Assembly (NCBI GenBank): GCA_900314725.1
Contig: OMWJ01000002.1
Coordinates: 124,001 to 188,000 of the forward strand
Source: an uncultured Bacteroidales bacterium
GTDB taxonomy: Bacteria > Bacteroidota > Bacteroidia > Bacteroidales > P3
Direction: 5' to 3'
DNA: 64,000 bases
The notes under the pieces are model-generated. The model saw only the letters and a program-made list of their open reading frames with translations, did no database searches and was not told where the DNA came from. Shown here piece after piece: positions 4,827-40,822 of this stretch. Made by a program: the position numbers and the translations under genes. Numbering within the stretch: the stretch's first letter is position 1; every line of letters begins with the position of its first letter.

Positions 4827-5564
4827 ATGAGATGTAAAAATTGTGGCTGGGAAAATCCAGATACAGAAACAAGATGTGCAAAATGCAATTCTACCTTATC
4901 CAATTCCCCTTCAAATTTAAAACAGACAGAAAGGCAAGCTCCTGCTATGCAAAGCGAAAGTTTGAATTTGAAATCAACGGTTAGAGAAGTTCAAAACAAT
5001 AATGGAAGTCCTATAAACAGCATTCCACAAGAGAACAAGCCTAAACAGTGTCATAAATGCGGTTATCCTCTTGCAGAAAATATGGACGAATGCCCAATGT
5101 GTGGCAGTTATCAAAACAAAAAAGAAGAAGTAACTCCTAAACAAGTAAATATTTCTTTAAAAACTTGCCCTTCTTGTGGTAATAATGTAGAGTTTTCTGC
5201 TTTGTTTTGTTCAAAATGTGGTCATAAATTTCAGACAAGAAATGCAACAGTCAATAATTGGATGAGCCCTAACAAAGGTGCCTTCTGCACCCTTAAACCT
5301 ATCGCTTGGGAAAACGAGGCAAAAGAATATAATCCTATAACTTATTCTGGAGACAAGATAGTGTTGAACCGTGCAAATACCGATACCAACAACAATTCCA
5401 TAACTTCAAAAGAACAAGCCATACTGTCTTTTGAAAATGATGAATGGTGTATTGAAAATGCCAGCGAAATGAAAACTACATTCATCCAAGTTAATAGAAA
5501 AACTAAACTAAAAGACGGAGATGTTATAGTTTTAGGAAATAGATTGTTTGAATTTAAGGGATAG
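4827..5564 (+). CDS. Zinc-ribbon protein with C-terminal FHA-like domain
   Basis: 245 residues, no signal peptide, so cytoplasmic. Three double-Cys zinc ribbons are visible: CKNCGWEN with CAKC at 3-20, CHKCGYP with CPMCG at about 74-92, and CPSCGNN with CSKCGH at about 114-132. The last 85 residues look like a degenerate FHA domain: a conserved ITSKEQAIL segment stands where FHA proteins have the SxxHA phosphothreonine-binding motif, followed by the terminal strand pattern LKDGDVIVLGNRLFEF. FHA domains bind phosphothreonine, so it may be a substrate or adaptor of the kinase encoded 5 bases downstream. First gene of a seven-gene operon. The FHA call is moderately sure, the adaptor role is inferred. 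Confidence 0.75.
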   Translation: MRCKNCGWENPDTETRCAKCNSTLSNSPSNLKQTERQAPAMQSESLNLKSTVREVQNNNGSPINSIPQENKPKQCHKCGYPLAENMDECPMCGSYQNKKEEVTPKQVNISLKTCPSCGNNVEFSALFCSKCGHKFQTRNATVNNWMSPNKGAFCTLKPIAWENEAKEYNPITYSGDKIVLNRANTDTNNNSITSKEQAILSFENDEWCIENASEMKTTFIQVNRKTKLKDGDVIVLGNRLFEFKG

Positions 5565-5569
5565 AAGAA

Positions 5570-6955
5570 ATGTTTAGTCCTCTGGTAGAGCGTTGTAATC
5601 TCACGCCCAAAGATATTATCAATGGGACTTACCGAGTAGAGAAACTACTTGGTGAAGGTACTTTTGGATTAGTCTATAAAGTAAGACATATTTCAGAAGG
5701 AAAAGATTACGCCTTGAAACTTTTGAAACTATGGATGGTGAGTTCAGAGGAGAGATTGGTATTGCAGAAGCGTTTTGACAGAGAATATGAAACAGGAAGA
5801 ATACATTCAAATTATCTTGTCCATTCTGTTGATAAAGGAATCTTGAAAGGCAATCCTTATATCGTTATGGAGTTCTGTTCTAACGGCGATTTAGAGAATG
5901 CTGTAATGGAAAACAAAGTTGATTTGGCTTATGCTGGAGACTGTATCCTCAGAGGATTAGGAGATTTACATTCTCAAGGCAAAGTTCATAGAGATTTAAA
6001 ACCTGCTAATGTACTAATAAAAGACAATGGCGAGGTTGTTCTTACTGATTTCGGTATTGCAGGCGACCAAAACAACCGTCTAACTCAAAGAGGTATCTTT
6101 GGAACTCCTAAGGAACTGTTTGGAACTTACGCTTATATGCCTCCTGAACAACTTCATCCAAAAGGGAATAATGCAACTGTACTACCGACAACAGACATCT
6201 TTTCTTTTGGAGTTATGATGTATGAGTTAATATGCGGATTTCTGCCCTTTGGAAACTTAGACTCAGAAGCCGATTTAGTAACCTATACAACAAGAGCTAA
6301 GAACGGAACATGGGATAAATCAAGGCTTCTAAACAAAAAAGAAGGGAAAGAATGGGAAAGACTTATTGTTGGTTGTTTAGAGCCAGATTTTAAAAAGCGT
6401 CTTCAAAATTCTGCAGACTGTATCAAACTTCTGCCTTTAAGTAAAAGAGAGTATAATCTTCCCAAAACTAAACATCATCTTTCTCAATCAAATATTTCAC
6501 TTGGTAGTTTTGCTTCTACTCCTACACTAAGAATAATGCAAGGTGAAGAGTACGGTAGGACTTATAACTTAAGCGAATTTCTCAAATTCTCTAAAATCAT
6601 TACTATTGGCAGAGAAGATACACATATATATAATATGATTAGTGTTAAGGAAACAGAGTCTTTTTTTATTTCCCGTTGCCATTGCTGTATTGAATATAAT
6701 TCAGCAACAAATAAATGGTTAATCAGAGATGGACAATGGAGAATAAGTTGTCCTATTGGATTAAAAAAAGCTGCTACTAATCCTTGTTCTATTTGTAGAG
6801 AACAGAATTGTGATAGGTCTTTCAAGTTTCAATGGAAGAACTCAACAAATGGAACATACGTAAATTCAACAGAAGTTTCTTCAACTGGAATGGTCATGAA
6901 TAATGGTGATATTATTTCTATTGGAGATGTAAAAATAAGAATAGAAGGAATATAA
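5570..6955 (+). CDS. Soluble Ser/Thr protein kinase with C-terminal FHA domain
   Basis: 461 residues. The kinase domain (about 20-295) has every key residue: glycine loop GEGTFGLVYK at 28-37, catalytic-site lysine K50, HRDLKPAN at 140-147, DFG at 160-162, and an APE-like MPPEQL. An FHA domain follows (about 325-461), with TIGRED, an SRCHCCIEY segment equivalent to SxxHA, and STNGTYVN before the final NGDIISIGD strand. An unusual insert with four cysteines (CPIG...CSICREQNC, about 402-420) sits inside the FHA domain and could bind zinc. No membrane segment, so it should act in the cytoplasm on Thr residues that FHA partners in the operon can read. Five bases separate it from the zinc-ribbon gene. 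Confidence 0.92.
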   Translation: MFSPLVERCNLTPKDIINGTYRVEKLLGEGTFGLVYKVRHISEGKDYALKLLKLWMVSSEERLVLQKRFDREYETGRIHSNYLVHSVDKGILKGNPYIVMEFCSNGDLENAVMENKVDLAYAGDCILRGLGDLHSQGKVHRDLKPANVLIKDNGEVVLTDFGIAGDQNNRLTQRGIFGTPKELFGTYAYMPPEQLHPKGNNATVLPTTDIFSFGVMMYELICGFLPFGNLDSEADLVTYTTRAKNGTWDKSRLLNKKEGKEWERLIVGCLEPDFKKRLQNSADCIKLLPLSKREYNLPKTKHHLSQSNISLGSFASTPTLRIMQGEEYGRTYNLSEFLKFSKIITIGREDTHIYNMISVKETESFFISRCHCCIEYNSATNKWLIRDGQWRISCPIGLKKAATNPCSICREQNCDRSFKFQWKNSTNGTYVNSTEVSSTGMVMNNGDIISIGDVKIRIEGI

Positions 6956-6985
6956 ATTAGATTAATAATAAAAAAAATAAAGTAT

Positions 6986-8524
6986 ATGGGACAAACTACA
7001 GCTTATAAGAAATCAGTTGCCGCAACAGTCGGTGCTGGAATGAAATCAGTCTTCGGTGGAAGCGGAAGAAGATATTACATACTTGAACATAAAATATCAT
7101 CAAAGTATCACCGTGCAGGAGAATCTCAAAAGATAATTGTTGATCAAATAGAGTTAGGACGAGACAGTCAATGTACAGTACGCTTTGACGAAAGTTTTAC
7201 AACAGTATCTCGCCGACATGCAGCAATCATTAGAGATGGTGATAATTGGAAACTTGTTCAATTGTCAAAAACAAACTCAACTTATCTTAACGGAAGTAAA
7301 GTTCAAACTGAATGGTACTTGCAAAATGGTGATGAAATCCAACTTTCTACTAATGGACCTAAACTTGGATTCATTGTTCCTCAAGGCGAGAAAAGTTTAG
7401 TTAAGAGTATTGGTCTTACAAACAGACTTAGTTTGTTCCGCCAACAAGCTTTGAAACCATATAAGAATGCTTTGGCCATTCTTTCTTGTGTTCTTTTGTT
7501 AGCTATTGCTGGAAGTGTATTTTGGATTACACATCTAAGTAGTGAATTAGATAAAGCCTTGGCTAAAGTTGAAAGTGCTATAAAGAACAACAAGGAATTA
7601 TCAGGCACAATAGATGATTTAAGAAAACAAGATTCAATCACTCAAGCACAAATTAAGAAAGGTGGAGGTAGAGGTTATGGAGGTGCAGCTGTTCCTGGCA
7701 ATCTCCAAGCTATGGTTTCCTCTGTTTCACCTTCAGTTTATTTTATTGTTACAACTGTGTATTTCCAAGTTGAAGGAGAAGAAGCTCAAAAACTTTCTTC
7801 ATCTTCTGGTACCGGATTCTTATTAGATGACGGCAGATTTGTAACAGCAAGACACTGTGTTGAGCCTTGGCTATTCCCTCCTTTGGAACCAAGTATTATG
7901 GCAGAAACTTATCCTTCACAATGTAAGATATGGTCTGTTATTCATGCTTATGGTCCAACTCCAACTGATGATTTTACTCTTCGTAGTTCAGATTTTAAAA
8001 TAGATAGAAGTAAAGACCTTGTTAAAGACTTTGCTGTTGGAGAGAATGGAGAAAGTCTAAGATGGAGAATTGCATCTATGATAACAACAAACAAAGGAGA
8101 AACTCTTGGTAACAAAGAATCAGGAGGCACAGATTGGGCTTATGCTCGCACAAGTAAAAAAGGAAAGATAAGTGCCAATGCCTCTCTATCTGCTAACCTA
8201 AAAGCAGGAACTGAAGTTTATGTTTTGGGATTTCCTGCTGGCTTAGGTGTTAATGACAGTAAAACAAAGAGAATAGAACCTATATTTAATAAGATGTCTG
8301 TTGCACGTTCTGGATTAAATGACGAAAACTGCATAATGGTTTCTCAAGGAGTTGCTCATGGTAATTCAGGAGGTCCTGTCTTTGTTGTTAGCGGTGGTAA
8401 AATTCAAGCTGTAGCAATTGTCTCTCGTTTGGAAGGTAGGACGCAACAATATGGAAACAACGGTGCTATTATCCAACAACAGCAACAATATGATCAATTA
8501 GTTCCAATTAATAACCTAAGATAA
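6986..8524 (+). CDS. FHA domain - membrane helix - trypsin-like serine protease
   Basis: 512 residues. The N-terminal FHA domain (about 48-130) has LGRDSQCTV, SRRHAAI and NSTYLNGSKV. One membrane helix lies at about 162-183, followed by a coiled coil (about 185-220) and a Gly-rich linker. The rest is a chymotrypsin-fold protease (about 240-512) with a plausible triad: H290 in TARHC, D383 in GGTDWAYAR, and S461 in GNSGGPV. With the FHA side cytoplasmic, the protease would face the periplasm, so phosphothreonine binding inside could control cleavage outside. The next gene starts within the TAATG overlap of its stop. No published protein with this exact arrangement comes to mind. Confidence 0.9.
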   Translation: MGQTTAYKKSVAATVGAGMKSVFGGSGRRYYILEHKISSKYHRAGESQKIIVDQIELGRDSQCTVRFDESFTTVSRRHAAIIRDGDNWKLVQLSKTNSTYLNGSKVQTEWYLQNGDEIQLSTNGPKLGFIVPQGEKSLVKSIGLTNRLSLFRQQALKPYKNALAILSCVLLLAIAGSVFWITHLSSELDKALAKVESAIKNNKELSGTIDDLRKQDSITQAQIKKGGGRGYGGAAVPGNLQAMVSSVSPSVYFIVTTVYFQVEGEEAQKLSSSSGTGFLLDDGRFVTARHCVEPWLFPPLEPSIMAETYPSQCKIWSVIHAYGPTPTDDFTLRSSDFKIDRSKDLVKDFAVGENGESLRWRIASMITTNKGETLGNKESGGTDWAYARTSKKGKISANASLSANLKAGTEVYVLGFPAGLGVNDSKTKRIEPIFNKMSVARSGLNDENCIMVSQGVAHGNSGGPVFVVSGGKIQAVAIVSRLEGRTQQYGNNGAIIQQQQQYDQLVPINNLR

Positions 8525-9366
8525 TGAAAAGAGTATTCATATTAATAAGTTTAGTATGCATTAGTTTTGCAATTAAGGCTCAATTTCTTAATTCGCCATC
8601 ATTGCAACTAATTGAAAAAGCTATACAAAAAGGAGTTTTTTGTGTAGAGAAAGGATATCAGTTACAGGATTCCAATCTTAACGTTTTTGGAAGAGAGAAC
8701 AAAGATGAGTTTAATATATTTTATTCTTTAGGAATAAAAACAAACAAAGGTTATCTTTTCTCTCATCAGGCAGTATATCCGTGGTTATTTGATAAAGACT
8801 TTGACGAATATAAAGATTCATACACTCCTATTCCTTTAAAGTCAAAATTCAAATACAATTCTTTTGAAGTAAAACCTTTGAATGATGTTTCAGTTCTAAC
8901 AGAAGACAGTCTTACATATTTATTATCTGACGGAGGAAACACATTGGAATGTTTTGACATCGGTGATATTGCTCCTAATACTCAAGGCTGGCTTTCTTGG
9001 ATATATGTAAATGACTCTTCTCTTTCTTTTGTTACACGTACAAAAAAAATAGACAGTGTCAATAATGAAACATTGGAAGAACCACAAAACACTCTTAAAT
9101 CTCCAGGAAAACTTATCGGAGGAGTATTTGTTGTTCCTGTTTGTGAAATAGGAGTAATTAAACTTCAGTTGTGTGGAGTTGTAGTACAAAAAGAGGACAA
9201 TTGGATTCTGACTTTTCCTTTCTATAAACCGAAGGAAAAAGTTTCCAACCTACCTTCAAACCTAACTCCTATAAAGACAAAGACAGAAAAACCTAAGGAA
9301 CAACTCAACAAAAACTATAAAAAAGGTAAAAGCAAAAAAAATACAGATAAAAAGAACAAAAACTAA
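8524..9366 (+). CDS. Secreted degenerate protease-like protein (probable pseudoprotease)
   Basis: 280 residues with a signal peptide ending IKAQ (about residue 20), so periplasmic or secreted, and a Lys-rich tail (about 240-280). It looks like a dead copy of the protease encoded just upstream. F-S-H-Q-A-V-Y-P-W-L-F (79-89) lines up with T-A-R-H-C-V-E-P-W-L-F, putting Q82 at the catalytic His. SWIY (158-161) lines up with DWAY, putting S158 at the Asp. The GKLIGGVFVV stretch (195-204) lines up with GNSGGPVFVV, putting L197 at the Ser. All three triad residues would be lost. The alignment was made by eye. It may hold or regulate the active protease. Start codon overlaps the preceding stop by one base. 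Confidence 0.7.
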   Translation: MKRVFILISLVCISFAIKAQFLNSPSLQLIEKAIQKGVFCVEKGYQLQDSNLNVFGRENKDEFNIFYSLGIKTNKGYLFSHQAVYPWLFDKDFDEYKDSYTPIPLKSKFKYNSFEVKPLNDVSVLTEDSLTYLLSDGGNTLECFDIGDIAPNTQGWLSWIYVNDSSLSFVTRTKKIDSVNNETLEEPQNTLKSPGKLIGGVFVVPVCEIGVIKLQLCGVVVQKEDNWILTFPFYKPKEKVSNLPSNLTPIKTKTEKPKEQLNKNYKKGKSKKNTDKKNKN

Positions 9367-9372
9367 ATAACA

Positions 9373-10713
9373 ATGAGTAAGAATATAACATTTCGTTTGG
9401 CAGCATACACTAAAGCAGCAGGAAAGTTTGATCCAAATGCTCCAAACAAAGGCAATGAAGATAATTTTTACTTGGATGATGACGTTTCAGACGAAAACCT
9501 GAGCCATTATGAAACAGATGTAGTTACCAATCTTTCTTCTTTAGGAATGGTTATGGCTGTTGCAGATGGTATGGGAGGAATGAATGCTGGAGAAGTTGCT
9601 TCTGAAATAGCCATTGAAACAGTAAAAGATTTCTTCGGAATAGGTCGTGTTACATCACTTATTGCTTCTAATCACGAAAGCAGAAAGAAATACTTGGAAC
9701 AAGTAATTATTGAAGCTGATAATAAAATCAAAATACAAGCATCTCAAAATTCTGAGCAAAGAGGAATGGGAAGCACACTGATAATCGCTTGGATTGTTGG
9801 CAATGAACTTACTCTTTCTTGGTTAGGTGATAGCAGATGTTACAGATATAATGATATTAACGGTTTAGAACTGCTTTCAAAAGATCATTCTTACGTACAA
9901 GAATTGGCGGATAAAGGAGTTATAACCTACGAACAAACATTTATTCATCCACAAAACAATATTGTTACAAGAAGTCTTGGAGACGAAAGCAAGAAGGCTA
10001 AGCCTGATACAAGATTGTTTAGTCTTTACAAAGGAGATATTATCCTTATGTGTAGTGATGGGCTTTCTGGTGTTCTGTTTGATAGGGAATTCTACTTGGA
10101 AAACAATCTTCTATCTACATATAATATAGAAGATATAATAAAAAACAACAAATCTTCTCTTCAAGCATGCAGAGAAGCATTGTTTGATGCTGCAGAAAAA
10201 AGTGATTGGTACGATAATGTCACTGTTATTCTTTGTGAAATTACAGACGGACTTCCTCTTGCTCCTAAAAAAGTAAAAACACAACAAGAAAACACAGATA
10301 ATTTCACCGAGGCTCCAAAGGCAAGCAGCAAGAAAAGTTGGAAAAAGCCTTTGATTATTATACTTGCTTGTTGTATTATCTGTGTTGTTGCAGCAATATG
10401 TACAATTCGCTATTTAAATAACAACAAACAGGCAGAAAAATCCTCACAAACTCCTACACAAATACAAACTCCAAAAACAACTCCTACCGAAAAAGTAGAA
10501 GACAAGGAAGATTCTCAAGCTGCTAAACAAGAGCCTGCAAAAGCAAAGAAACCTGCTAAACCTAAAAAGCCCGAAACTCCAACTACAAATCAAGACAACA
10601 GCAACAAGCAGAAAGAAACTAAGCCCCAAAACGAAGAAGGTAATAAAGGAGGATTGACTCCTGTCCCTAATAATAACAACACACAAGAACAAAAACCAAG
10701 TGGAGGAAAATAA
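9373..10713 (+). CDS. PP2C-family Ser/Thr phosphatase with C-terminal membrane anchor
   Basis: 446 residues. The PP2C domain (about 1-290) shows the metal-binding motifs GNEDNFYL near 27, VADGMGGMNAGE near 62, GMGSTLI with WLGDSRCYRY near 135-155, CSDGLSGVL near 220 and DNVTVI near 278. A membrane helix follows at about 325-347. The last 95 residues, rich in Lys, Pro, Gln and Thr, would be in the periplasm and may touch the cell wall. It should reverse the two kinases of the operon. Phosphatase and kinase side by side are typical of bacterial Hanks-kinase signalling. Six bases after the pseudoprotease gene, one base before the second kinase. Confidence 0.93.
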   Translation: MSKNITFRLAAYTKAAGKFDPNAPNKGNEDNFYLDDDVSDENLSHYETDVVTNLSSLGMVMAVADGMGGMNAGEVASEIAIETVKDFFGIGRVTSLIASNHESRKKYLEQVIIEADNKIKIQASQNSEQRGMGSTLIIAWIVGNELTLSWLGDSRCYRYNDINGLELLSKDHSYVQELADKGVITYEQTFIHPQNNIVTRSLGDESKKAKPDTRLFSLYKGDIILMCSDGLSGVLFDREFYLENNLLSTYNIEDIIKNNKSSLQACREALFDAAEKSDWYDNVTVILCEITDGLPLAPKKVKTQQENTDNFTEAPKASSKKSWKKPLIIILACCIICVVAAICTIRYLNNNKQAEKSSQTPTQIQTPKTTPTEKVEDKEDSQAAKQEPAKAKKPAKPKKPETPTTNQDNSNKQKETKPQNEEGNKGGLTPVPNNNNTQEQKPSGGK

Positions 10714-10714
10714 A

Positions 10715-12064
10715 ATGACTGAATTAAACATAGGAACTATAATACAAGAAAGATATAAGCTTCTACAACATATCGGAAGTGGAAGTTTTGGAGAAGTATG
10801 GTTAGCAGAAGATACTATACTTAACATAAATATTGCAATAAAATTCTACGTTGCCTTGGATGAAAGAGGACAAAAAGAGTTCATAGACGAATATAAGAAC
10901 TCATTTAGTCTTAACCATAGCAATATATTGACAGCTAAACATTATGCAATTTGGGAAAAACGACCTTATCTTATTATGGAATACTGTCCAGAAGGTTCTG
11001 CAAACAAATTGTGCAACAATACTGATGAACATACTATCTGGAAATTTATTCATGATGTTGCTGCTGGCTTAAACTATCTTCACAAGAATGACATCATACA
11101 TCAGGACATCAAACCAGACAATGTGCTTATCAACCCTAATGGTGATTTTGTTATAACAGATTTTGGAATTTCCCATAAAGTACGTTCAACCATGAGAAAA
11201 CAATCTGGAAGAATTGAGAATAGTGGATCTATTGCTTACATGGGACCAGAACGTTTTCAAAAGGATGTTATGCTGATTAATGCAAGCGATATTTGGTCTT
11301 TAGGTGCATCTATCTATGAATTAGCAACAGGAGAGTTGCCTTTCAACGGCTTAGGAGGAGGAATGATGCTTTCAGGTGCTGAAATTCCCGACTTACCGGA
11401 AAAGTTTTCAGCGGATTTAAACAAAATCATGCAACTATGCCTAAGCAAAGAACCATGGGAAAGACCGTTGGCTGCTAACTTAGAGAAGATGGCAACACGA
11501 AAACTCAACGGTGAGAGTTTGGAACCTTCCCCTCCTACTCAAATCATCAATCAAAACGACAATAACAACCAAAGTTTTGAACCTGTAAACGAAACAAAGA
11601 AAAAGTCCAACTTACCTAAGATAATAATAGGTATTCTCGTTGCTGTTATTATTGCTGGTGGTGCTATCGGATTTTCCGTTTATAAATCTTTTCAAACCAA
11701 GAAGTCTATCATAAAGGACTACCGCAAGGTTGTAACAGAGTGCAAAGTATCTATAGAAGCGGGAGATATTGGTAATACAAATTCATTGTTAGCCGCAAAA
11801 GACCAAATTCTTGAGGTAAAGAAGTTGGAAGACCAATATGCAAACGAATATGAAGAATGCAATGAGTATAAAAATCTAAAACAAGCTCTTGATCAAAAAT
11901 GCACAGAAGCAGCTAACTCATGGAGAGATGCTGCAGAAAAACAATATTTCAACCTACATGATGTAGAGAATGCAAAAGAGTACTATTCACTTGCTTTACA
12001 ATTAAGTAATGAAAGAAGTGAAAAGCTTGACAAAATAAAAGAGTTCTCAAGCATCGGTCAATAA
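10715..12064 (+). CDS. Membrane-anchored Ser/Thr protein kinase
   Basis: 449 residues from ATG 10715. A GTG at 10700 would also be in frame, but GGAGGA at 10702-10707 and the position just after the phosphatase stop favour the ATG. Kinase domain about 10-270: GSGSFGEV at 21-28, K43, HQDIKPDN at 129-136, DFG at 149-151, and MGPERF as the APE region. The usual HRD is HQD, a change that marks a non-RD kinase that does not need activation-loop phosphorylation in well-studied families. One membrane helix lies at about 302-322, then a charged helical region of about 120 residues with TPR-like spacing that would be periplasmic. The layout resembles PknB-type sensors but lacks PASTA domains. Confidence 0.92.
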   Translation: MTELNIGTIIQERYKLLQHIGSGSFGEVWLAEDTILNINIAIKFYVALDERGQKEFIDEYKNSFSLNHSNILTAKHYAIWEKRPYLIMEYCPEGSANKLCNNTDEHTIWKFIHDVAAGLNYLHKNDIIHQDIKPDNVLINPNGDFVITDFGISHKVRSTMRKQSGRIENSGSIAYMGPERFQKDVMLINASDIWSLGASIYELATGELPFNGLGGGMMLSGAEIPDLPEKFSADLNKIMQLCLSKEPWERPLAANLEKMATRKLNGESLEPSPPTQIINQNDNNNQSFEPVNETKKKSNLPKIIIGILVAVIIAGGAIGFSVYKSFQTKKSIIKDYRKVVTECKVSIEAGDIGNTNSLLAAKDQILEVKKLEDQYANEYEECNEYKNLKQALDQKCTEAANSWRDAAEKQYFNLHDVENAKEYYSLALQLSNERSEKLDKIKEFSSIGQ

Positions 12065-12113
12065 TTCATTTGGAAAGTATTAAGTTTTAAAAGGAAAATA
12101 AAAAAATGACAAT

Positions 12114-13517
12114 ATGAAACGAATATTATTGATTTTATTATCGGTTATATGCTGTTATACTTTTACCCTATCACAAAACTTAGCTCCTAAATCAAACAAA
12201 GTCAGCTGCTATTCAAAAAATAGGTCTAAAGGTATATCGCTATATAATCAGGGAAAATGTGCAGAAGCTAAAAAATGGTTCAATGTGGCTAAGGATTGTC
12301 CCGACAAACCTCAAAAAAACGACATTGCAACTTGGATTAGCAAATGTAACAACTGCAACAAAAAAACAGTAAAAAATCCTAACAATCCAACAAAACCTAC
12401 AAGACCGGTCAATAAAGAGAGTGAATGGGCTAAGAAATCATATATGAACATAACCAATCTTGATTTCGGAAGCACTGATGGTGAAGGAAATTTGGAAATA
12501 GAATTTGGAGAAAATCTTTATTCTGACTTAAAATATCTTGCTACACGAATAGAGTATGACGGTTTAGCAGATGTAGAAAAAAATGCTACCATATACGTTG
12601 CCATTTATGACCCTGATGGAAATTTACTAACAGGAACATCTTCTCCTACTGGTTACACCTACTCTGTAGATGTTACCGTTGAAGCAGGATATTATAATAG
12701 TGTAACCATTCCTGGCTGGGGAAATAATTACGGAACAGTATATAAGAGCGGTACTTACCAAATGAGAGTCTTTTCAAGTTATGGTAATGAGTTATATCGT
12801 AGAAACATTTACATCCGTCCTGCTGTTGTAGTTGAAAAGCCTACTGAAACAACAGGTTCTTTTGGTTTCTATGGCACTTCTCGCTCCTATTCCAATAGTG
12901 CAACAGGCTTGAAGTATTTACGAGATGACGTAAGTGAAAAAGGAGGATTTCGTACAGGAGCTATTTCTGTTAATGGCAAAGGTGTTATCATCAGGGGAAA
13001 CAACGGCTATGCCTATACAGGAATATCAACCAATCTTGCCGATAAAATCAAGAGTTTGAACAAAGACAATTCAAAAATTGAAGATGTATTCTTCTCTCCT
13101 AATGGTGAATACTATGGGGTTGTTTATGATTCTTATGGCTATTTCGCTCATACTCTGCAAAGTATGTTAGATAAACTAAAGGAATACAACAATAATCAAG
13201 AACATATCACATCTGTTTCGGTTAATAATAATGGAGATTTCATCATCATAACAGACAAACATCTTTATGCAAGCAACACAAATGACTACAATGCTATGAT
13301 AGCTGCAAAAGATAAATATGGATATATCTATTCCGCTTGCACAACTGAAGAAGGAGTTATATTCTGTTGTGAAAGAGGTGTGTATTATTCCAATATTCCG
13401 ACTATATTAGAGAATAAACTAAAATCTCTTTCGTGGAAACCGAAAATAATCAAATTCACCGATTACGGTACCTTCATAGTAACAGATGGAGAAAACACCT
13501 ACACCTATCAAATGTAA
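12114..13517 (+). CDS. Secreted beta-rich protein, last gene of the kinase operon
   Basis: 467 residues with a signal peptide ending TLSQ (about residue 21). A short Cys-rich, TPR-like helical part follows (about 25-85, with cysteines near 31, 48, 59, 76 and 79). A middle beta domain lies at about 105-240. The C-terminal half (about 255-467) repeats strand-turn-strand units such as GAISVNGKGVIIRG and DVFFSPNGEYYGVVY, similar to WG or propeller repeats. No enzyme motif was recognised. Being last in an operon of kinases and proteases, and itself periplasmic, it is a candidate target or sensor. It starts 49 bases after the second kinase and is followed by a repeat array with a strong terminator hairpin. 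Confidence 0.7.
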   Translation: MKRILLILLSVICCYTFTLSQNLAPKSNKVSCYSKNRSKGISLYNQGKCAEAKKWFNVAKDCPDKPQKNDIATWISKCNNCNKKTVKNPNNPTKPTRPVNKESEWAKKSYMNITNLDFGSTDGEGNLEIEFGENLYSDLKYLATRIEYDGLADVEKNATIYVAIYDPDGNLLTGTSSPTGYTYSVDVTVEAGYYNSVTIPGWGNNYGTVYKSGTYQMRVFSSYGNELYRRNIYIRPAVVVEKPTETTGSFGFYGTSRSYSNSATGLKYLRDDVSEKGGFRTGAISVNGKGVIIRGNNGYAYTGISTNLADKIKSLNKDNSKIEDVFFSPNGEYYGVVYDSYGYFAHTLQSMLDKLKEYNNNQEHITSVSVNNNGDFIIITDKHLYASNTNDYNAMIAAKDKYGYIYSACTTEEGVIFCCERGVYYSNIPTILENKLKSLSWKPKIIKFTDYGTFIVTDGENTYTYQM

Positions 13518-13524: not shown

Positions 13525-13636
13525 TAAAAAAAAGAGTTGATTTTAGAAAAAAAAGAGTTGGTTTTCAGCCGCGAAAACCAACTCTTTTGGGTGTAAAGAC
13601 TTAGTCTTTTTTTTCTAAAACCAACTCTTTTTTTTA
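13525..13636. repeat. GASTTRRT word array 2 with terminator hairpin
   Basis: Five words in A/T runs, beginning 8 bases after the kinase operon ends. A perfect 16-bp hairpin (13551-13566 with 13573-13588, loop AGCCGC) pairs GAGTTGGT with ACCAACTC. A GACTTAGTC odd palindrome near 13598 and another ACCAACTC near 13619 follow. Very probably the operon terminator. Confidence 0.8.
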
Positions 13637-30649: not shown

Positions 30650-33600
30650 ATGAAAAAACGTATTGTGAATTTGATAGTATTACTACTATCATTCGTGAGT
30701 ATAAACCTTTATGCTCAAACGCTGAGTTCCACAGCTCCAAATGGAACATTTACATCTGAAGATATAGACTATTGGATAGGCGAAGGAGAAAACGAAATCG
30801 GAATTATTTTCGTCTATAACAATGAAAGCCTTTCTCCAGATTATTTTGTTCTTGGCTATCGTTGGAATGGTAACAACATTACCTTAGAAGATGCCTTGAC
30901 TGAGATAGCCTTTACTGACTCTCGTTTTGATATGGATGCAACTCTTGGTTGGTTAAGCGACTTCGCTTTTGACTATGATGAAGATGGTGCTTATGAATAT
31001 TCTGCATACACCAACGATTCATACGGATATTTCAACTTAAGAGATAACTGCACAAGCACTCCTACTGGAATGGGCAGTTATTATCTTACAGGAAATAGTT
31101 GGATAAGCATAGAATACAAAACTAATGAAGACAGTTGGGAAGATTGCTTTGCTCAAACAGGAACATATACTGCTATTCCTGCTCCTAATGATGAACCATT
31201 ACCTTGTTTGCTTCCAAGTAACCTTCATGTAGATTTCGTTACAGAAAACTCTGCCATAATATATCTTGGCACTCTACCTGCAAACTACACTCTTTATCTT
31301 AAAGCACAAGGAGAAACTTCTTTCACTTCTTATAGTATCACAAATGAAGTAACCTACACTATGGAAAATCTTCTATCTGGAACAGATTATGAATGCTATA
31401 TTATAAAGGATTGTGGAGAAGGAAGCCTTTCAGAAGAAAGCGAACATCTTACTTTTACAACTCTGACAAGTCAAGCAAATGATTGTGATATAGTTTCTCT
31501 ACCATATACAGAAGATTTTGATTCATACGGAACAACAGGTGGAGGTGTTTATCCTTATCCTTCATGCTGGACAAAGATAACAACAGGAAATATCCCTAAT
31601 ATAAATACTACAAAACATTCTGGTGTTGGTGGTTTATATTTACAAGCAGCACCAAACACACAAGTTGTAGCCGTTATGCCAAAGATTGCAGATAATATTA
31701 ATTTAAATACTCTTTCTTTAACTTTCTGGGGAAAAAGAGGCTCTGCAGGAAATAGAATAACAGTAGGAGTAATGACTGACAAAGACGATGCAACAACCTT
31801 TGACACATTATTTGCTGTTAGTCCTTCTTCTAATGCTTGGGCTGAATACACATTAGATTTCTCTCAATACACAGGCACTGCTAAATATATTGCTTTTATA
31901 TGTAATGGCAGCAGATACTATATTGATGATGTGGTATTAGACGGCAATTCTTCCACTGTTGAACCTACAAATCCTTCAATGACAGATGAGAACATTGTTG
32001 CTTGGGCTAAGGGTGTAGAAGTTGTCAGAGCTAATACGGTAACAACAGGCAATTATTACGATGCTATTGGTCAGGCAAACACTACAAATTATGTTTCTAT
32101 TCAAGGAGGTTTGGCAGTTGCAACATTTGACAGACCTATTAATAATGCTGAAGGTGATGACTTTGTTGTTTTTGGTAATAACACAAGCAATGGACAAGCA
32201 TACGTTGAAGTTTCTTCAAATGGAACAGACTTCTTTAGATTTGACAGCAAAACATCTATTCTTGCTACAGGATTAGGCACTGCATACGATCTTGACAACT
32301 TATCTGACAACGCCAACTTAGACAAGAACAACATTCGTTTAGTTCGCCTTGTTGATGATTCTACTGCTGGATTCCTTCTTGCAGGTATAGGCGTCTATAA
32401 TGGAGGAGAACAATATCAAATTGCAGATTTTGAAAATATGCTTTCCACCCCTAATACTTATGAAATAGTAACAAGTTCAACACCTGGTGCTACCCTTATA
32501 GGAACAGATGATTATGGTATGAATATGTATTCTAAGGATTATGCTAATGGAGGTCTTGTATTTAATGGTTTAGGATTGTACGGAGGTTCATTCTCTATTG
32601 GTTGGGGACCTTCTAACCTTACTACAAATTCTGGTTATTATGCTTCTTCTGCTTCAGCTGCTTTGGAAGGAGCAGGCAATGGCTATCTACAAGGATATTT
32701 TTCTGATTTTGCCGGAACAACAGAACATTTAACTGTTGTAAGAGATAATAACACAACATTCTCTCCTAAAGGAACATATGTTTGTCAAAGTGCTGCTTCT
32801 TTTTCTGATGCACAGACTTTAACAACAAATGATAATAATCCAGGTTGGATGAAAATAGTAGCAACAGGTTACAATGCTGACGGAAGCATAGTTGGTAGTT
32901 CTTTTGTTTATTTGGTAGATAATGCTGCAAATGGTGTTGGAAACGTAAAAGAATGGCGTTGGTTAGATATGTCTTCTTTTGGAGAAGTTGCAAAAGTAAA
33001 ATTCACAATGGAATCTAATTATGCTAACAATTATGGTCTGTTGATTTCTTCTTATTTCTGTATAGATAACTTTGTTTATATGGAAGGAAGTACAATAGAA
33101 GAGCCAGAACCAGAATGTCCTGTTGTAACAAATCTTCAAGTTATGGAATCATGGACTGAAGAAAATCAAGCAAGTATAATGTGGAATAGCGACAATACGG
33201 AATTCTATATTTATTATAAAGAACAAAGTGCAACAGATTTTGATTCAGTCTTGGTAAGTGGAAATCTTTTCTACACAATAGAAGGTCTTACTGCTAACAC
33301 AACATACGAATGCTACGTAAGAACAAAATGCTCTGAAACAAATCTTTCTAATGCTTCTGAAGTAATTACCTTTACAACTCTTGCTTCTTCTTTACCAGAC
33401 GCTCCATCAATGACTGATGAAAACATTGTTGCTTGGGCTAAAGGTGTAGAAATAAAAAGAGCATTCAATGCAACAGCAGGAAACTATTACGATGCTATTG
33501 GTCAAGCAAATACTACTGATTATGTTGCAATACTTAATGGTTATGCAAAGGCAAGTTTTGACCGTCCTATAACAAACCAAGAAGGAGCAGACTTTGTTGT

Positions 33601-35146
33601 ATTTGCTCATAACGACAATGAAAACGGAAGAGCCTTTGTTGAAGTTTCTTCTAATGGTAGCGACTTCTTCAGATTTGCAGAAAAAACATCTGTTCAAACT
33701 CTTGGCTACGGCACTGCATACGATTTAGATGATTTGGACGATAACGCAAACTTAGACAAGAACAACATTCGTTTAGTTCGTCTTGTTGATGATAATATCG
33801 GTGTATTCAATCTTGCTGGTATAGGTATCTACCATGGTGGAGAACAATATCTAATTGCAGACTTTGAAGAAGGAACATTCCTTACTGCTGCTAACACTTA
33901 CGAAATAGTAGCTTTAAACAACTACACTCGCACAGAAGAAGATGAAGACACAGAAATGACTTATTATTACAAAGATCACGTTTCTGCTGGACTTAACTTC
34001 CCTGGCATTGGATATGATTTAAGCGGTTGGTTTATGACTGCTGGTTTTGGTGCAAGCAATGGTACAAGTTCTGCTATAAGTGGTAATGGCGGAGAATATG
34101 TGGATGCTAACTATTATGTATCTTCTGCCATGGCAGGTGTTGAAGGTGCTGGATATACTTATATGCAATCATACGATGCAGGAGTTTTTGGACCTCAACA
34201 ACAAAATGAAATAAAAACAACTGACAATACTACTTTCTTCCCTCAAGGAGTTTATGTTTCTCACTCTAATGCATCTTATACTTATACAGGTCAAACAAAT
34301 GACTACGAACCAGGCTATCACAAAGTAATAGCAACAGGATACGATGCTCAAGGAACAGTTCTTGGTTCTGTTTATGTTTATCTTACAGAAAACGGAAACG
34401 CTTACAAAGACTGGAAATGGTTAGATCTTTCTTCTTTAGGTGAGGTTGCAAAAGTAAAATTTGCTCTTGAATCAAACTATGCAAATAGTTATGGTTTGCT
34501 TATTCCTTCTTATTTCTGCGTAGATAACTTTGTTTATCGTGCTGGAAATGAAATAGAAGAACCTTGCACTCCTACTGCTTCAACTATTGATGTATCATTA
34601 TGCGAAGGAGATTCTTACAACTTTGATTCTGAACACTCATACTCAGAAGAAGGAACATATGAAATAACTCTTACAAATGCAGCTGGTTGTGATAGCACTA
34701 TTACATTAAACATCGCTATTATGCCAACATATAATGAGGAAATCACTCTTGAAATCTCAAGCAGCGATCTTCCTTATCAATTTGGTGAGCAAGTATTGAC
34801 AGAATTAGGAACATACACAGAAACCTTTACTTCAATAAACGGTTGTGATAGTGTTGTAACCTTGACTTTAGTAATTCCTAACGGAATAAACGAAGTTGAA
34901 AACAATTATTCTGTTTCTCTTTATCCTAACCCAACTTCAGAAAATGTAACATTAAGTGTCAAAGGCTTGAATAAAGAGGCAACAATCATTGTTACTGACC
35001 AACAAGGCAGAGTAATCTCTACTTCAATCCTTACATCAGGACAAGAGAACTCAGTAATCAACACCGACAATCTTGCGTCTGGAGTATATTACGTAAGAAT
35101 ACAGACTGCTAACTCTGTAAGAACAGAAAAACTAATCAAGAAATAA
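30650..35146 (+). CDS. Giant T9SS-secreted protein with tandem DUF4465-type modules, B12-regulated
   Basis: 1498 residues with a signal peptide ending LYAQ (about residue 23). In order: a beta domain (25-175), an FN3-like domain (178-270), a jelly-roll domain (about 275-430), module A (440-585) plus a DUF4465-like domain (590-805), another FN3 (815-910), a second copy of module A (918-1065) plus DUF4465 (1070-1300), two short SxxxCEGDSY-type repeats, and a T9SS type A sorting domain (YPNPTSENV to the final LIKK, about 1425-1498). The C-terminal domain sends it through the type IX system to the cell surface. DUF4465 proteins occur in Bacteroidetes corrinoid-uptake loci (from memory the BtuH family binds B12). 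With the B12 riboswitch, surface B12 capture is the likely role. Confidence 0.85.
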   Translation: MKKRIVNLIVLLLSFVSINLYAQTLSSTAPNGTFTSEDIDYWIGEGENEIGIIFVYNNESLSPDYFVLGYRWNGNNITLEDALTEIAFTDSRFDMDATLGWLSDFAFDYDEDGAYEYSAYTNDSYGYFNLRDNCTSTPTGMGSYYLTGNSWISIEYKTNEDSWEDCFAQTGTYTAIPAPNDEPLPCLLPSNLHVDFVTENSAIIYLGTLPANYTLYLKAQGETSFTSYSITNEVTYTMENLLSGTDYECYIIKDCGEGSLSEESEHLTFTTLTSQANDCDIVSLPYTEDFDSYGTTGGGVYPYPSCWTKITTGNIPNINTTKHSGVGGLYLQAAPNTQVVAVMPKIADNINLNTLSLTFWGKRGSAGNRITVGVMTDKDDATTFDTLFAVSPSSNAWAEYTLDFSQYTGTAKYIAFICNGSRYYIDDVVLDGNSSTVEPTNPSMTDENIVAWAKGVEVVRANTVTTGNYYDAIGQANTTNYVSIQGGLAVATFDRPINNAEGDDFVVFGNNTSNGQAYVEVSSNGTDFFRFDSKTSILATGLGTAYDLDNLSDNANLDKNNIRLVRLVDDSTAGFLLAGIGVYNGGEQYQIADFENMLSTPNTYEIVTSSTPGATLIGTDDYGMNMYSKDYANGGLVFNGLGLYGGSFSIGWGPSNLTTNSGYYASSASAALEGAGNGYLQGYFSDFAGTTEHLTVVRDNNTTFSPKGTYVCQSAASFSDAQTLTTNDNNPGWMKIVATGYNADGSIVGSSFVYLVDNAANGVGNVKEWRWLDMSSFGEVAKVKFTMESNYANNYGLLISSYFCIDNFVYMEGSTIEEPEPECPVVTNLQVMESWTEENQASIMWNSDNTEFYIYYKEQSATDFDSVLVSGNLFYTIEGLTANTTYECYVRTKCSETNLSNASEVITFTTLASSLPDAPSMTDENIVAWAKGVEIKRAFNATAGNYYDAIGQANTTDYVAILNGYAKASFDRPITNQEGADFVVFAHNDNENGRAFVEVSSNGSDFFRFAEKTSVQTLGYGTAYDLDDLDDNANLDKNNIRLVRLVDDNIGVFNLAGIGIYHGGEQYLIADFEEGTFLTAANTYEIVALNNYTRTEEDEDTEMTYYYKDHVSAGLNFPGIGYDLSGWFMTAGFGASNGTSSAISGNGGEYVDANYYVSSAMAGVEGAGYTYMQSYDAGVFGPQQQNEIKTTDNTTFFPQGVYVSHSNASYTYTGQTNDYEPGYHKVIATGYDAQGTVLGSVYVYLTENGNAYKDWKWLDLSSLGEVAKVKFALESNYANSYGLLIPSYFCVDNFVYRAGNEIEEPCTPTASTIDVSLCEGDSYNFDSEHSYSEEGTYEITLTNAAGCDSTITLNIAIMPTYNEEITLEISSSDLPYQFGEQVLTELGTYTETFTSINGCDSVVTLTLVIPNGINEVENNYSVSLYPNPTSENVTLSVKGLNKEATIIVTDQQGRVISTSILTSGQENSVINTDNLASGVYYVRIQTANSVRTEKLIKK

Positions 35147-35264: not shown

Positions 35265-38200
35265 TTACATCAAATTACCGATGACATCTATCATCTCTTT
35301 GTATCCATTCACTTCATGGTAGCGAACTTTGCTCGTTGAAACGCTGTTGAAAAGTTTCTTGGCACAATCAATCTTTGCTCTTTCTATGTCCCTCAGTTGC
35401 ATAGAATCCATGCTTCCCTTGGTCTCTGCGATAAAGAATATGTGTTTCACGTCCATTTTGTCATTGAAAGCGATAGCCCAGTCTGGAGCATAGTTACCCA
35501 CAGGAGTCGGAATCTGGAACGTGCGAGGTAGTTTTGCATAGACACAAACCTCATTTGCAGCATCAAGGTCTTCTGCAAACTTTCGTTCTCCCTTGCTGTC
35601 AGTAAACACATAGTCCAGGATATGCTTTTTGGCAGGATAGGCTTTGTCAACGCTCTGACGGCTCTTTTCCTGCGTAAAAATATCCGTTTCGTAGGTCTGT
35701 TCCGTACGATTATAACAGATATGCTCCACTATCATCGTGGCTTTCTGCTCTTTGATGAGTTTTATCACGTTGCGGATAAACTCCTCTGGATTGTTCTTGA
35801 ACAGATATAGTTTTGCCGTAGAAATGCCTTCTAGGATACGAACCACCGTTCTTCTTGTAAGTGTTGCACCTTTGGCAATATCGCCAACGAGGTCATAGGG
35901 GACATCGCTTTTAGAAACCTCCCTCATGGTTTGTGTACTGGTGTGCTGGGCATCGGTAAAATCAGGGTCATCCGCTCCTTGTTCGCCTGTTGTTACCACA
36001 TACTTCAGTTCGGTAACACGCAGATTCTTGTTGATAGAAGCCACCGCTTTTTGTATCAACTCCTCACTACTATAGTGAACAGTATAGACGTATCTATGGT
36101 TGATTTCTTTCCACAGAGCCTTGAACTCTTTCTTCTCGGCATTGTCGTTCAGGTGGTCGTTCACCACTTCGGCCTTGTCGTTGGCATCTTCCACCATATC
36201 CACCAAGGCGGTGGGGTCGAAGATGCTTTGTATCAATTTGTGCACCTGCTCTTTTATGGGTTGGAGCTTCTTGCTCATCGGGGCAAGTGTGCCGTTCTCC
36301 AAGTCGGTATGGTATGCTTGTTGTATGTTACCTTTCTCGTCTATATAGTCGTTGTCGAACAGGTAACTAACGATACCGACTGCCTCCTGTTCCGAAATAG
36401 TGTGCAGTCCGCCCTCCACCTTGATGGTGATGTCTTTGAAGTATTCCACGGTGGCCTGTGTCGGACGCTCACGGAGGGTTTCCTTGGTTTCCTTTTGCAG
36501 AGCATCAACAAAGGAGCTGTAGTTCTCGTTGGCAATGACGGTCAGTTTGTTGGTGTCGTGGACGGCATCGCCCAGTCGCTCTTTGTCCATGCGGTTACCA
36601 TCTCTGTCTACACAGATACGCAATCCTCGTCCAACCTCCTGCCGTTTGGCAGTAGCACTGTTGGCGTGACGCAGGGTACATATCTGGAACACATTCGGAT
36701 TATCCCATCCCTCACGCAGAGCGGAGTGGGAGAAGATGAACCGTGTCGGTTCGTCAAAACTCAGCAGACGCTCCTTGTTTTTAAGAATCAAGTCGTAAGC
36801 CGTTATATCAGATGAGAAGTCTTCGCCACGTTTCACAGTGCTGTTGATAACACGACCATTCCTATCTATAGAGAAGTAGCCATTATGCACCTGTTCAACG
36901 TTGAATCTTTTCAGATACCGCTGATAGTCGTCCTCAAAGAGCAATATGTTCTCGTTCAGGTAGCGGTTGTACTCCTGCTCAAACATCGTCCAAAGCGGAC
37001 CTTTCACAACCTCTCCCTGTTCGTCGTAGCCCTTGTAGTTTGCCACCTCATCAATAAAGAACAACGAAAGCGTCTTGATGCCCTGCTGGAACAGCTGACG
37101 CTCTTTCTCAAAGTGGCTTTTTATCGTTTCACGTATCTGCACCTGCTGAATGGTCTTCTCCGACACATCACCCATCACCTCACCAGCCTTTATCTGTTTA
37201 CCGTTGCGGAAAAAGACCGTATTTGTTAGTGGGTTGATGTCGGTGATGACAAACTCCTTGTAGGCAGGCAGCCCAGAGGCATCTAAGAGCGAGTCGCCCT
37301 GCGAGAACTTCATGGTCTGGCGGCGAGCCTGACTGGCCCCTTGCACCTCAATCTCCAGTTTTACCTCTGGTGCCTTATTCTTCGAGAGCACAATGCTATC
37401 AAAATAGATATATGCCTGAGCACCCATCAGGTTCTGGAGTGTTATGCCCTTCACCTGAATTTTCTTCACCAGCCGCTGACAGTAGGCATCGTAGGCATCA
37501 AGTGCATAGATGCAGTTATGCGAGGTCTTGTGTGTGGCCGAATAGTTCAGTACGAACAGCGGTTTGAAGTTCTTCAAGGCTCGCTGGGTGGCTGCACCTT
37601 CCATTTTCTGTGGCTCGTCCATGATGATAATCGGGCGGTTAGCAGCTATCACATCTATAGGCCGACGGCTTTGAAAGTCGTCTCGCGTGGAGTACATGAT
37701 CAAGCTTACCTTGTTCTTCGCATCCTCCTTAAAGTCGCGTGCGAAAGCCTGCGTATTGATAATCATCACATTGATGCTGGCATCACTGCTAAAGGAGTCT
37801 ATCTGTGTCAAGTTGCTGCTGTTATAGATAAAGTAGCGGGCTTTCTTGCCATACTGCTCCATGAAGTGCTCTTCCAACATCGTGAAGCTTTTATACACGC
37901 CCTCACGAATGGCAATGCTGGGCACCACCACGATGAACTTAGACCAGCCGTAACGCTTATTCAACTCAAACATCGTCTTGATATAGACGTAGGTTTTACC
38001 CGTACCCGTCTCCATCTCAATGTCTAAGGAACAAGCCCCCAAGCCGTCTGGCAAACTGAGTTTCGTTGACTTCGGTATGTTGCCGATGGCTTGCTGCTGC
38101 TGAATATTGGCAAGCAATTGATGACCTTGCAACTCCACATCGTTGTTGCGCCATCCTACATATTCCTCTTCAAACGTAATCTGTCCCTTACGTTTACCCA

Positions 38201-38309
38201 AGTCGCGGCGATACTGTGCATTTGTCTTCGATGGCTGTCCTGCAAACACATTCACCGTCTGCTCCACAGCCTCTGTCTGGTATTGTTGTATCTTAAACTT
38301 AAACTTCAT
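35265..38309 (-). CDS. Type III restriction enzyme Res subunit
   Basis: 1014 residues. Helicase superfamily 2 motor: METGTGKTYVYIK (about 100), the Walker B variant DEPQ (about 231), a SATH motif (near 257) and the motif VI EVGRGLRICVDR (about 560). The C-terminal PD-(D/E)xK nuclease is visible in YAPDWAIAF (about 938) and IAETKG (about 960). It translocates along DNA and cuts when two unmethylated sites meet, needing the Mod subunit encoded 13 bases upstream. It ends a five-gene, GC-rich island. Codon use and GC content are unlike the flanking genes, a sign of transfer. Confidence 0.95.
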   Translation of the reverse strand: MKFKFKIQQYQTEAVEQTVNVFAGQPSKTNAQYRRDLGKRKGQITFEEEYVGWRNNDVELQGHQLLANIQQQQAIGNIPKSTKLSLPDGLGACSLDIEMETGTGKTYVYIKTMFELNKRYGWSKFIVVVPSIAIREGVYKSFTMLEEHFMEQYGKKARYFIYNSSNLTQIDSFSSDASINVMIINTQAFARDFKEDAKNKVSLIMYSTRDDFQSRRPIDVIAANRPIIIMDEPQKMEGAATQRALKNFKPLFVLNYSATHKTSHNCIYALDAYDAYCQRLVKKIQVKGITLQNLMGAQAYIYFDSIVLSKNKAPEVKLEIEVQGASQARRQTMKFSQGDSLLDASGLPAYKEFVITDINPLTNTVFFRNGKQIKAGEVMGDVSEKTIQQVQIRETIKSHFEKERQLFQQGIKTLSLFFIDEVANYKGYDEQGEVVKGPLWTMFEQEYNRYLNENILLFEDDYQRYLKRFNVEQVHNGYFSIDRNGRVINSTVKRGEDFSSDITAYDLILKNKERLLSFDEPTRFIFSHSALREGWDNPNVFQICTLRHANSATAKRQEVGRGLRICVDRDGNRMDKERLGDAVHDTNKLTVIANENYSSFVDALQKETKETLRERPTQATVEYFKDITIKVEGGLHTISEQEAVGIVSYLFDNDYIDEKGNIQQAYHTDLENGTLAPMSKKLQPIKEQVHKLIQSIFDPTALVDMVEDANDKAEVVNDHLNDNAEKKEFKALWKEINHRYVYTVHYSSEELIQKAVASINKNLRVTELKYVVTTGEQGADDPDFTDAQHTSTQTMREVSKSDVPYDLVGDIAKGATLTRRTVVRILEGISTAKLYLFKNNPEEFIRNVIKLIKEQKATMIVEHICYNRTEQTYETDIFTQEKSRQSVDKAYPAKKHILDYVFTDSKGERKFAEDLDAANEVCVYAKLPRTFQIPTPVGNYAPDWAIAFNDKMDVKHIFFIAETKGSMDSMQLRDIERAKIDCAKKLFNSVSTSKVRYHEVNGYKEMIDVIGNLM

Positions 38310-38322
38310 ACATCTGCTTCGT

Positions 38323-40206: not shown

Positions 40207-40212
40207 GTTAGT

Positions 40213-40821
40213 TTACTGATTATTGTTTTTCTTAACCCGTTTTACGGTATGCTTTATTTTCCCTATCAAGAAGTTGAGTTCGAGCGTTGACTCCGTTTCC
40301 GACGTTTCCAAATCAGGCATGACAATATCGGAAAGCACTTCGCCGAAATGCTGCATCTTTGCGTTTTGCAGTTTCTTGTCGGTTTCCTTGTGCAATTCCT
40401 TGAGTTCACGCTTCAGTGACCTTACCTTTGCAAAGGTCTCAATAATGGCTAATGTTGCATCTGTCGCAATATCACTTTTCAAAATAGTAGCCAACATATA
40501 AAGACCTTTCTCAGAGAAAGCCTTAGGCATGACAGTAGAATGTTTCAGCGAATCAAACCGGTGGAAATTTTCCACCAGTTCGCGCTTCTCTTCTGCGTTC
40601 AGTTCAAAATAATAGTCAGTCGGGAATTTCTTTGGGTTGTTCTTGACAGCTTTATTAATGTCTCTTGTGGCAACACCATAAATGGCAGCCACATCCCTAT
40701 CTATAAGGACTGGTGTCTCACGTATGACGACAATACTATTGTTTACTTCGGCAATGAGTGAGGACTGTAGATTACCAGACTTTGCCAAAGTTTTTTCGTT
40801 TGGTTCTTTTTGCTTTTCCAT
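40213..40821 (-). CDS. ORF6N domain protein
   Basis: 202 residues. The N-terminal 100 match the ORF6N domain: IVVIRETPVLIDRDVAAIYG near 30, then a NPKKFPTDYYFEL stretch near 68 and an AFSEKGLYMLATILKS stretch near 103. The C-terminal part is a charged helix (about 130-165). ORF6N domains are predicted to bind DNA and are common in phage antirepressors and mobile elements. Here the gene lies inside the type III restriction operon, between the DUF4391 and mod genes, so it may regulate or travel with that operon. Confidence 0.9.
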   Translation of the reverse strand: MEKQKEPNEKTLAKSGNLQSSLIAEVNNSIVVIRETPVLIDRDVAAIYGVATRDINKAVKNNPKKFPTDYYFELNAEEKRELVENFHRFDSLKHSTVMPKAFSEKGLYMLATILKSDIATDATLAIIETFAKVRSLKRELKELHKETDKKLQNAKMQHFGEVLSDIVMPDLETSETESTLELNFLIGKIKHTVKRVKKNNNQ

Positions 40822-40822
40822 A

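Follow-up and report, generated by a model that had tools for sequence, protein, structure and literature searches.

How might a phosphorylation event inside a Gram-negative cell act on proteins of the envelope? The question is raised by a run of seven genes, g1 to g7, at positions 4827 to 13517 of the window, the whole stretch of 64,000 nucleotides analysed here (contig OMWJ01000002.1, forward-strand positions 124,001 to 188,000; assembly GCA_900314725.1, an uncultured Bacteroidales bacterium with a genome of 1.96 Mb, 99 % complete). Among bacteria, Hanks-type kinases, PP2C phosphatases and FHA domains are familiar signalling components, whose output mostly lies in the cytoplasm or is unknown. 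In the present operon the reader forms part of a trans-membrane protease, and every FHA, Pkinase and PP2C_2 domain detected in the genome is encoded there, which makes this an unusually clean system in which to study the control of envelope proteolysis by phosphorylation within a Gram-negative cell. The core consists of six genes, g1 to g6, patchily distributed and tightly conserved in gut and environmental Bacteroidales. Chances are about even that they form a self-contained phospho-threonine system controlling proteolysis across the inner membrane, from the inside outwards, with the g3 protease as its output.

Organization of the operon

The seven open reading frames all lie on the plus strand, as do the features located below unless stated, and are separated by successive gaps of 5, 30, −1, 6, −14 and 49 bases, in agreement with the operon of short gaps and overlaps originally predicted. 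The −14 overlap of g5 and g6 rests on a GTG start at 10700; the alternative ATG start of g6 at 10715 changes it to a gap of +1. Domains were assigned with Pfam, and membrane spans and signal-like segments by hydropathy. Pfam agrees with the predicted make-up of g1 (zinc ribbons and FHA), g2 (kinase and FHA), g3 (FHA and Trypsin_2), g5 (PP2C) and g6 (kinase). The spans in g3, g5 and g6, together with the signal-like segments on g4 and g7, place the FHA, kinase and phosphatase domains in the cytoplasm, so that three readers, two kinases and one eraser face that side, as had been proposed; the products reaching the periplasm number five (g3, g4, g5, g6 and g7) rather than the four originally counted. 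In a profile search the operon accounts for all FHA (three), Pkinase (two) and PP2C_2 (one) domains detected in the host genome, which excludes partners of these families elsewhere in it as far as profiles detect. Thus, the marks read here are probably written by g2 and g6.

The trans-membrane protease g3

The 512-residue g3 (6986 to 8524) displays an FHA domain (residues 56–120; Pfam 1.1e-15), a transmembrane segment (residues 163–181, LAILSCVLLLAIAGSVFWI, 7472 to 7528; hydropathy 2.56), a coil and a periplasmic trypsin-like protease domain (residues 275–488; Trypsin_2, 2.9e-9). Both the Pfam match and a His-Asp-Ser triad assign it to the trypsin-like (S1/Trypsin_2) proteases. The catalytic residues His-290 (7853 to 7855), Asp-383 (8132 to 8134) and Ser-461 within GNSGG (8366 to 8368) are kept in 78, 81 and 80 of 82 sequences, respectively, while the residues of the phosphothreonine (pThr) site of the FHA domain, G58, R59, S75, H78, N97 and N102, are invariant in all 82. 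The near-invariance of the FHA residues and the protease triad argues that both membrane sides matter.

These residues bear on the direction of signalling. The foremost of three rival readings, ahead of a role in an energised machine and, last, of phage defence, would have the signal run from the outside in: an envelope ligand would be sensed or cut by g3 and g4, and the message passed through the g3 FHA domain to the kinases, by analogy with site-1-type proteases and receptor ectodomains, the output being a cytoplasmic phosphoprotein such as g1. The adaptor g1, with its conserved threonines, could serve as such an effector, g5 and g6 also carry periplasmic parts, and the dead triads of some g3 proteins are compatible with a binding role. 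The retention of every phosphopeptide-binding residue by g3 nevertheless indicates that g3 itself reads phosphorylation, and input is already supplied by separate sensor kinases with variable ectodomains, which leaves this reading unlikely overall.

Truly broken triads were observed in four g3 proteins, at L067, L071, L086 and L094 (L labels denote homologous loci in relatives). The pseudoprotease gene g4 is absent from three of these four loci versus 14 of the 77 with an intact triad, a contrast with a probability of about 0.03 by a hypergeometric calculation made by hand on sequences that are not independent. Loss of the triad may go with absence of g4, a pattern that at such small and non-independent numbers is suggestive.

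Kinases and phosphatase

The soluble Ser/Thr kinase g2 (461 residues, 5570 to 6955) combines a kinase domain (residues 21–279; Pfam Pkinase 2.1e-42) with a C-terminal FHA domain (residues 344–452; 9.6e-11). Its HRD and DFG motifs are kept in 74 of 74 homologues and a transmembrane segment is absent from all 87 inspected. The FHA domain (window 6599–6925) displays an insertion with extra cysteines, C394, C406, C409 and neighbours, present in only about 10 of the 74 homologues; judged from sequence, the insertion may bind zinc within this phosphopeptide reader.

The second kinase, g6 (454 residues, 10700 to 12064), is anchored in the membrane, with a Ser/Thr kinase domain (residues 19–261; Pkinase 1.2e-45), a transmembrane segment (residues 308–326) and a periplasmic helical sensor region. 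H-x-D and DF(G) are kept in 96 sequences of this type and the internal transmembrane segment in 97 of 107 homologues. The catalytic half of these membrane kinases is conserved and their periplasmic ends are highly variable: among 80 such ends, nine are FGE-sulfatase-like and three carry MORN repeats, with WG, Sel1, BACON and TPR domains also represented. g6 is not a PASTA kinase of the PknB/Stk1 type, having no PASTA repeats and scoring 165 bits versus a model cut-off of 450. Between the two kinase genes lies that of the phosphatase g5 (446 residues, 9373 to 10713), with a cytoplasmic PP2C domain (PP2C_2, 3.7e-12), a transmembrane segment (residues 327–345) and a periplasmic tail rich in Pro, Lys and Thr. 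Its metal ligands D65 and G66, D229 and D281 are kept in 75 of 75 homologues and its internal transmembrane segment in 81 of 85.

The adaptor g1 and its candidate phospho-sites

The 245-residue cytoplasmic adaptor g1 (4827 to 5564) carries zinc ribbons (Zn_Ribbon_1, 4.7e-14; DZR, 1.6e-9) followed by an FHA domain at about residues 191–237 (2e-4, above the FHA cut-off), and was found in 80 of the 89 loci having g3. Two threonines stand out from otherwise variable linkers. Thr-51 (4977 to 4979), in the linker between the zinc ribbons, belongs to the motif T-[VI]-x-E and is conserved in 70 of 72 sequences, the other two having gaps; Thr-141 (5247 to 5249), just before the FHA domain in the motif G-T-[VI]-N-P-W, is conserved in 72 of 72. 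In switches of the GarA/OdhI type, conserved threonines lie in disordered segments beside kinases and FHA domains. By this likeness the near-invariant Thr-51 and Thr-141 are taken as the likeliest marks, that is, as the likely phospho-sites and FHA ligands predicted from the alignment. They are a new feature of the system and offer concrete, falsifiable phospho-site predictions.

The pseudoprotease g4

The secreted g4 (280 residues, 8524 to 9366) begins with a signal peptide ending at a conserved A19-Q20. Searches of Pfam, PADLOC, NCBIfam and PDB sequences, the last also with a profile, gave no hit for it, and profile comparison with g3 detected no relation (hhalign probability 1.4 %). An AlphaFold model based on 64 homologues (mean predicted local distance difference test score, pLDDT, 85.3) was compared with the PDB by Foldseek, and all 50 matches listed are chymotrypsin-fold proteases, namely viral 3C-like proteases, HtrA/Deg and MarP, with a best E-value of 5e-4 and modest TM-scores of 0.3–0.56. 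Similarly, the named matches in a viral structure library are largely trypsin-like peptidases and polyproteins. Active-site positions of g4 and g3 were matched by eye. The g3 pattern G-T-G-F-L-L-x-D-G-R-F-x-T-A-R-H-x-V-E-P-W is echoed in g4 by Y-S-L-G-I-K-T-N-K-G-Y-L-F-S-H-Q-A-V-Y-P-W, the catalytic His corresponding to the variable Q82, the Asp of DWA to G155 (Gly in 60 of 64) and the Ser to the hydrophobic I198; His exceeds 7 of 64 homologues in no column. The trypsin-like fold together with the replacement of all three catalytic residues identifies g4 as a pseudoprotease, in keeping with the secreted, dead-looking protease of the original prediction.

Conservation and spread of the cassette

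Among a first sample of 101 related genomes, the complete FHA–transmembrane–trypsin architecture was found in five, including the host; of the four other carriers, one belongs to the same genus and three to other families, and all have g2, g3, g4, g5 and g1-type genes around the protease. When 84,980 species genomes were scanned for the pattern, 129 loci could be confirmed. The 80 retrieved come almost entirely from Bacteroidales, including Palleniella intestinalis, Barnesiella sp. An22 and Odoribacter laneus, whose strain YIT 12061 provides a cultured, named carrier (locus L039); wrong binning may explain the one record assigned to Clostridia. More than 80 Bacteroidales loci hold the cassette in the same order or in shuffled blocks, and chance is therefore rejected as an explanation of the arrangement. 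The dominant order is g1-g2-g3-g4-g5-g6 and the others are block shuffles such as g3-g4-g5-g1-g2; over 90 loci the adjacencies g1-g2, g3-g4 and g4-g5 occur 72, 68 and 64 times.

Linkage is best judged on the 52 loci with at least 5 kb on either side of g3. There g5 is present in 52 of 52, g1, g2 and g6 in 49 each and g4 in 40, and the linkage of all six genes in one locus, which defines the proposed circuit, is found in 37. From locus to locus, the pairwise distances within the six families are correlated with one another (r 0.49–0.74), and none of 999 permutations reached the observed value. The prediction could have failed in two ways, through a gene order not conserved in relatives or through kinases and phosphatase lying apart from the protease; the first was tested and did not occur, and in the loci examined the kinases and the phosphatase were not found away from the FHA–transmembrane–trypsin gene.

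Unselected sampling of the order Bacteroidales gave g3 in 12 of 393 genomes, spread over 12 genera, and g4 in 10, all among those 12. Of 395 genomes sampled from the rest of the phylum, two more carry g3, and neither belongs to the order or the class; these two keep mA-mB-g3-g5 (mA and mB being MotA/ExbB-like and MotB-like neighbour genes) without g4, and L101, one of the two, also has g1, g2 and g6. Most species are without the cassette and some genomes hold two copies. In the same-genus relative it occupies a different site, flanked by purA-like and DnaJ genes instead of dnaA, and an integrase lies beside four to five loci, with related tyrosine recombinases directly upstream at L040:6308-7531, L056:516-1715, L057:6318-7517 and L082:2492-3688. 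Patchiness, shifted site, double copies and tyrosine integrases together fit horizontal movement. Plasmids, phages and viral contigs yielded nothing that matched the cassette, and an origin in any of these was rejected.

The same distribution, with its occasional integrases, could be expected of an anti-phage or abortive-infection module, and the two kinases with a PP2C phosphatase recall the kinase–kinase–phosphatase (KKP) module with which Pf prophages defend against phages (PMC11341870). The likeness extends to two Hanks kinases, one of them FHA-bearing (here g2), in one operon with PP2C. In contrast to KKP, the window operon is not prophage-borne and adds the zinc-ribbon/FHA adaptor, the trans-membrane FHA-protease, the pseudoprotease and transmembrane segments. 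The KKP order of PP2C followed directly by two kinases is not seen, the kinases here flanking protease and phosphatase (g2-g3-g4-g5-g6), and the cold-shock domain of the KKP kinase (PF00313) is absent from g2, g6 and the 25 commonest Pfam families of the 80 membrane kinases. PADLOC returned generic kinase or protease matches only, and metabolism or housekeeping accounts for most of the 118 flanking genes, among which a single DpnII restriction-modification system was found; neither result favours a defence island. With the lack of matches in plasmids, phages and viral contigs added, a defence role of this kind is very improbable.

Related loci were encountered beside these. In genome G044, of the host's family, L016:223-10131 displays one run of an FHA-FHA-transmembrane-trypsin protein, an FHA protein, a PP2C-transmembrane protein, a kinase-FHA-transmembrane protein, an FHA-transmembrane protein, a small secreted protein and a 1262-residue kinase. 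The idea that this locus represents a common sister system was rejected, since none of 247 further genomes of the order matched its protease. At L017:8853-19900 (genome G038), at least six FHA-type proteins and a PP2C-transmembrane protein apparently form a phospho-threonine island lacking a g3-type protease.

Proposed mechanism

In the inside-out circuit, the membrane kinase g6 would sense an envelope signal through its swappable periplasmic domain and, together with the soluble g2, phosphorylate conserved threonines, most likely Thr-51 and Thr-141 in disordered linkers of g1. The FHA domains of g2 and g3 would then dock on phosphorylated g1, clustering or reorienting g3 such that its periplasmic trypsin domain becomes active, while g4 would regulate g3 as a subunit, present substrates to it or serve as its decoy, and the phosphatase g5 would reset the circuit. 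Likely substrates would be envelope proteins, plausibly the adjacent secreted accessories (g7-type, BACON, TPR and Sel1 proteins and outer membrane barrels). What the analysis establishes is the set of parts, their conserved active sites, the topology signals, the linkage and the joint inheritance. The write-read-erase circuit originally proposed stands as far as its parts are linked and co-inherited with the FHA-protease and the pseudoprotease, in more than 80 loci; that the protease is its output rather than its input is what we infer.

Several points weigh against this circuit. The protease could act upstream of the kinases. The absence of g4 from 22 of 90 loci and the four broken g3 triads indicate that proteolysis is not always needed, Thr-51 and Thr-141 were singled out as candidates by conservation alone, and the distance correlations among the g1 to g6 families partly reflect host phylogeny.

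Accessory proteins and the mA/mB pair

The 467-residue g7 (12114 to 13517) carries a signal-like segment and was modelled by AlphaFold with a mean pLDDT of 82.7; fold matches identify TPR-like repeats, an Ig/FnIII-like sandwich and propeller-like repeats. Secretion was thus correctly foreseen, and these folds replace the earlier description as beta-rich. The sandwich, at about residues 100–235, is found again at L073, L039 and L070, where it forms the periplasmic C-terminus of membrane kinases. Most loci add variable secreted proteins; of 95 secreted neighbours, 20 carry BACON domains and nine are outer membrane barrels, with TPR, Sel1, LRR and WG domains also found. The g7 sandwich, WG, BACON and Sel1 are domain types common to the sensor kinases and the secreted proteins encoded beside them. 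Accordingly, g7 is an example of an envelope component open to exchange; it belongs to a varying group of secreted accessories and is not the core member that it had been taken for.

The pair mA/mB raises a further alternative, in which the cassette would regulate an energised trans-envelope machine, kinases and protease controlling assembly or the transfer of force to surface proteins. mA matches MotA_ExbB in Pfam at 8e-12 to 1e-14, the family of MotA/TolQ/ExbB channels, and the MotB-like mB displays a single Asp-bearing transmembrane segment and a coiled coil. The pair adjoins g3 in 13 to 15 loci, as mB-mA between g2 and g3 or mA-mB before g3, and again in both out-of-order genomes. Its presence in these most distant relatives suggests that it may be ancestral and may have been lost in the lineage of the window. 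At most loci, the window included, mA and mB are not in the operon, and a machine of this kind is accordingly an improbable account of the cassette, though less so than defence.

Comparison with known systems

The threonine phosphorylation pathway of the type VI secretion system (PpkA-PppA-Fha/TagH) likewise comprises a membrane kinase, a PP2C phosphatase and an FHA reader. Here the reader is instead fused to a protease and no type VI genes lie beside the cassette; no TagH-type FHA protein was identified (25 bits versus a cut-off of 120), and with no VipB in the host genome this pathway was rejected. The single-FHA regulators GarA, OdhI and FhaB are closest in sequence to the g3 FHA domain and bind pThr in disordered segments; unlike g3, they are soluble, regulate metabolism or cell wall and have no protease. 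MarP (Rv3671c) and HtrA/DegS are periplasmic trypsin-fold proteases, anchored in the membrane and weakly similar to g3, but MarP and DegS have neither a cytoplasmic FHA domain nor kinase partners, and g3 scores 24.9 bits versus a cut-off of 250 for the NCBIfam MarP model. In LapD/LapG a cytoplasmic signal also controls periplasmic proteolysis; that system uses cyclic di-GMP and a separate cysteine protease where pThr, FHA and a covalently attached trypsin domain are found here. The mA of some relatives matches ZorA/MotA models, weakly for ZorA, but mB has no match to the ZorB model, no other Zorya proteins were found, and none occurs in the window.

In the conflict systems described by Kaur et al. 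and their successors, FHA and trypsin-like domains occur in other contexts. Open-access full texts searched for FHA together with trypsin, kinase, PP2C, MotA or WG contained no account of the present set, nor did those on Bacteroides kinases or FHA proteins. The claim that no system with this set had been described is upheld to that extent, KKP and the Kaur et al. systems being nearest. The cassette may represent a new class of trans-envelope signalling, in which pThr read inside by FHA would directly switch a covalently attached serine protease outside, with a dedicated pseudoprotease, kinases with interchangeable sensors and, in the probable ancestral form, a MotA/MotB-like channel; we hold this tentatively, at somewhat less than even chances.

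Flanking regions of the window

Downstream of g7, a terminator-like stem of 17 pairs at 13551 to 13588, found on the minus strand, near-palindromic and usable on both strands, probably marks the end of the transcription unit, although such sites are overall not above shuffles; a promoter scan likewise gave nothing above shuffles. Upstream, 440 non-coding bases separate g1 from a divergent WG gene. The suggestion that this WG-repeat/DUF4831 pair belongs to the system was rejected as regards the core: phmmer detected DUF4831 in the window alone and the WG protein at three loci, and the genome has other WG loci. WG repeats were nonetheless found in the membrane kinase of one relative and in two of the accessory proteins.

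Further along, about 21 kb from the operon, window positions 35265 to 44654 hold a type III-like restriction-modification set (Res-/Mod-like), an ORF6N-type protein and an SNF2-like helicase with an adjacent PLD-like gene, all recognised by eye. At 30650 to 35146 lies the gene of a secreted 1498-residue protein in which two internal domains resemble each other and the C-terminus looks like the sorting signal of type IX secretion substrates. At 51129 to 54088 the gene of a TPR/OmpA-type protein comes after that of a PorP/SprF-like outer membrane protein, which again points to type IX secretion in this organism.

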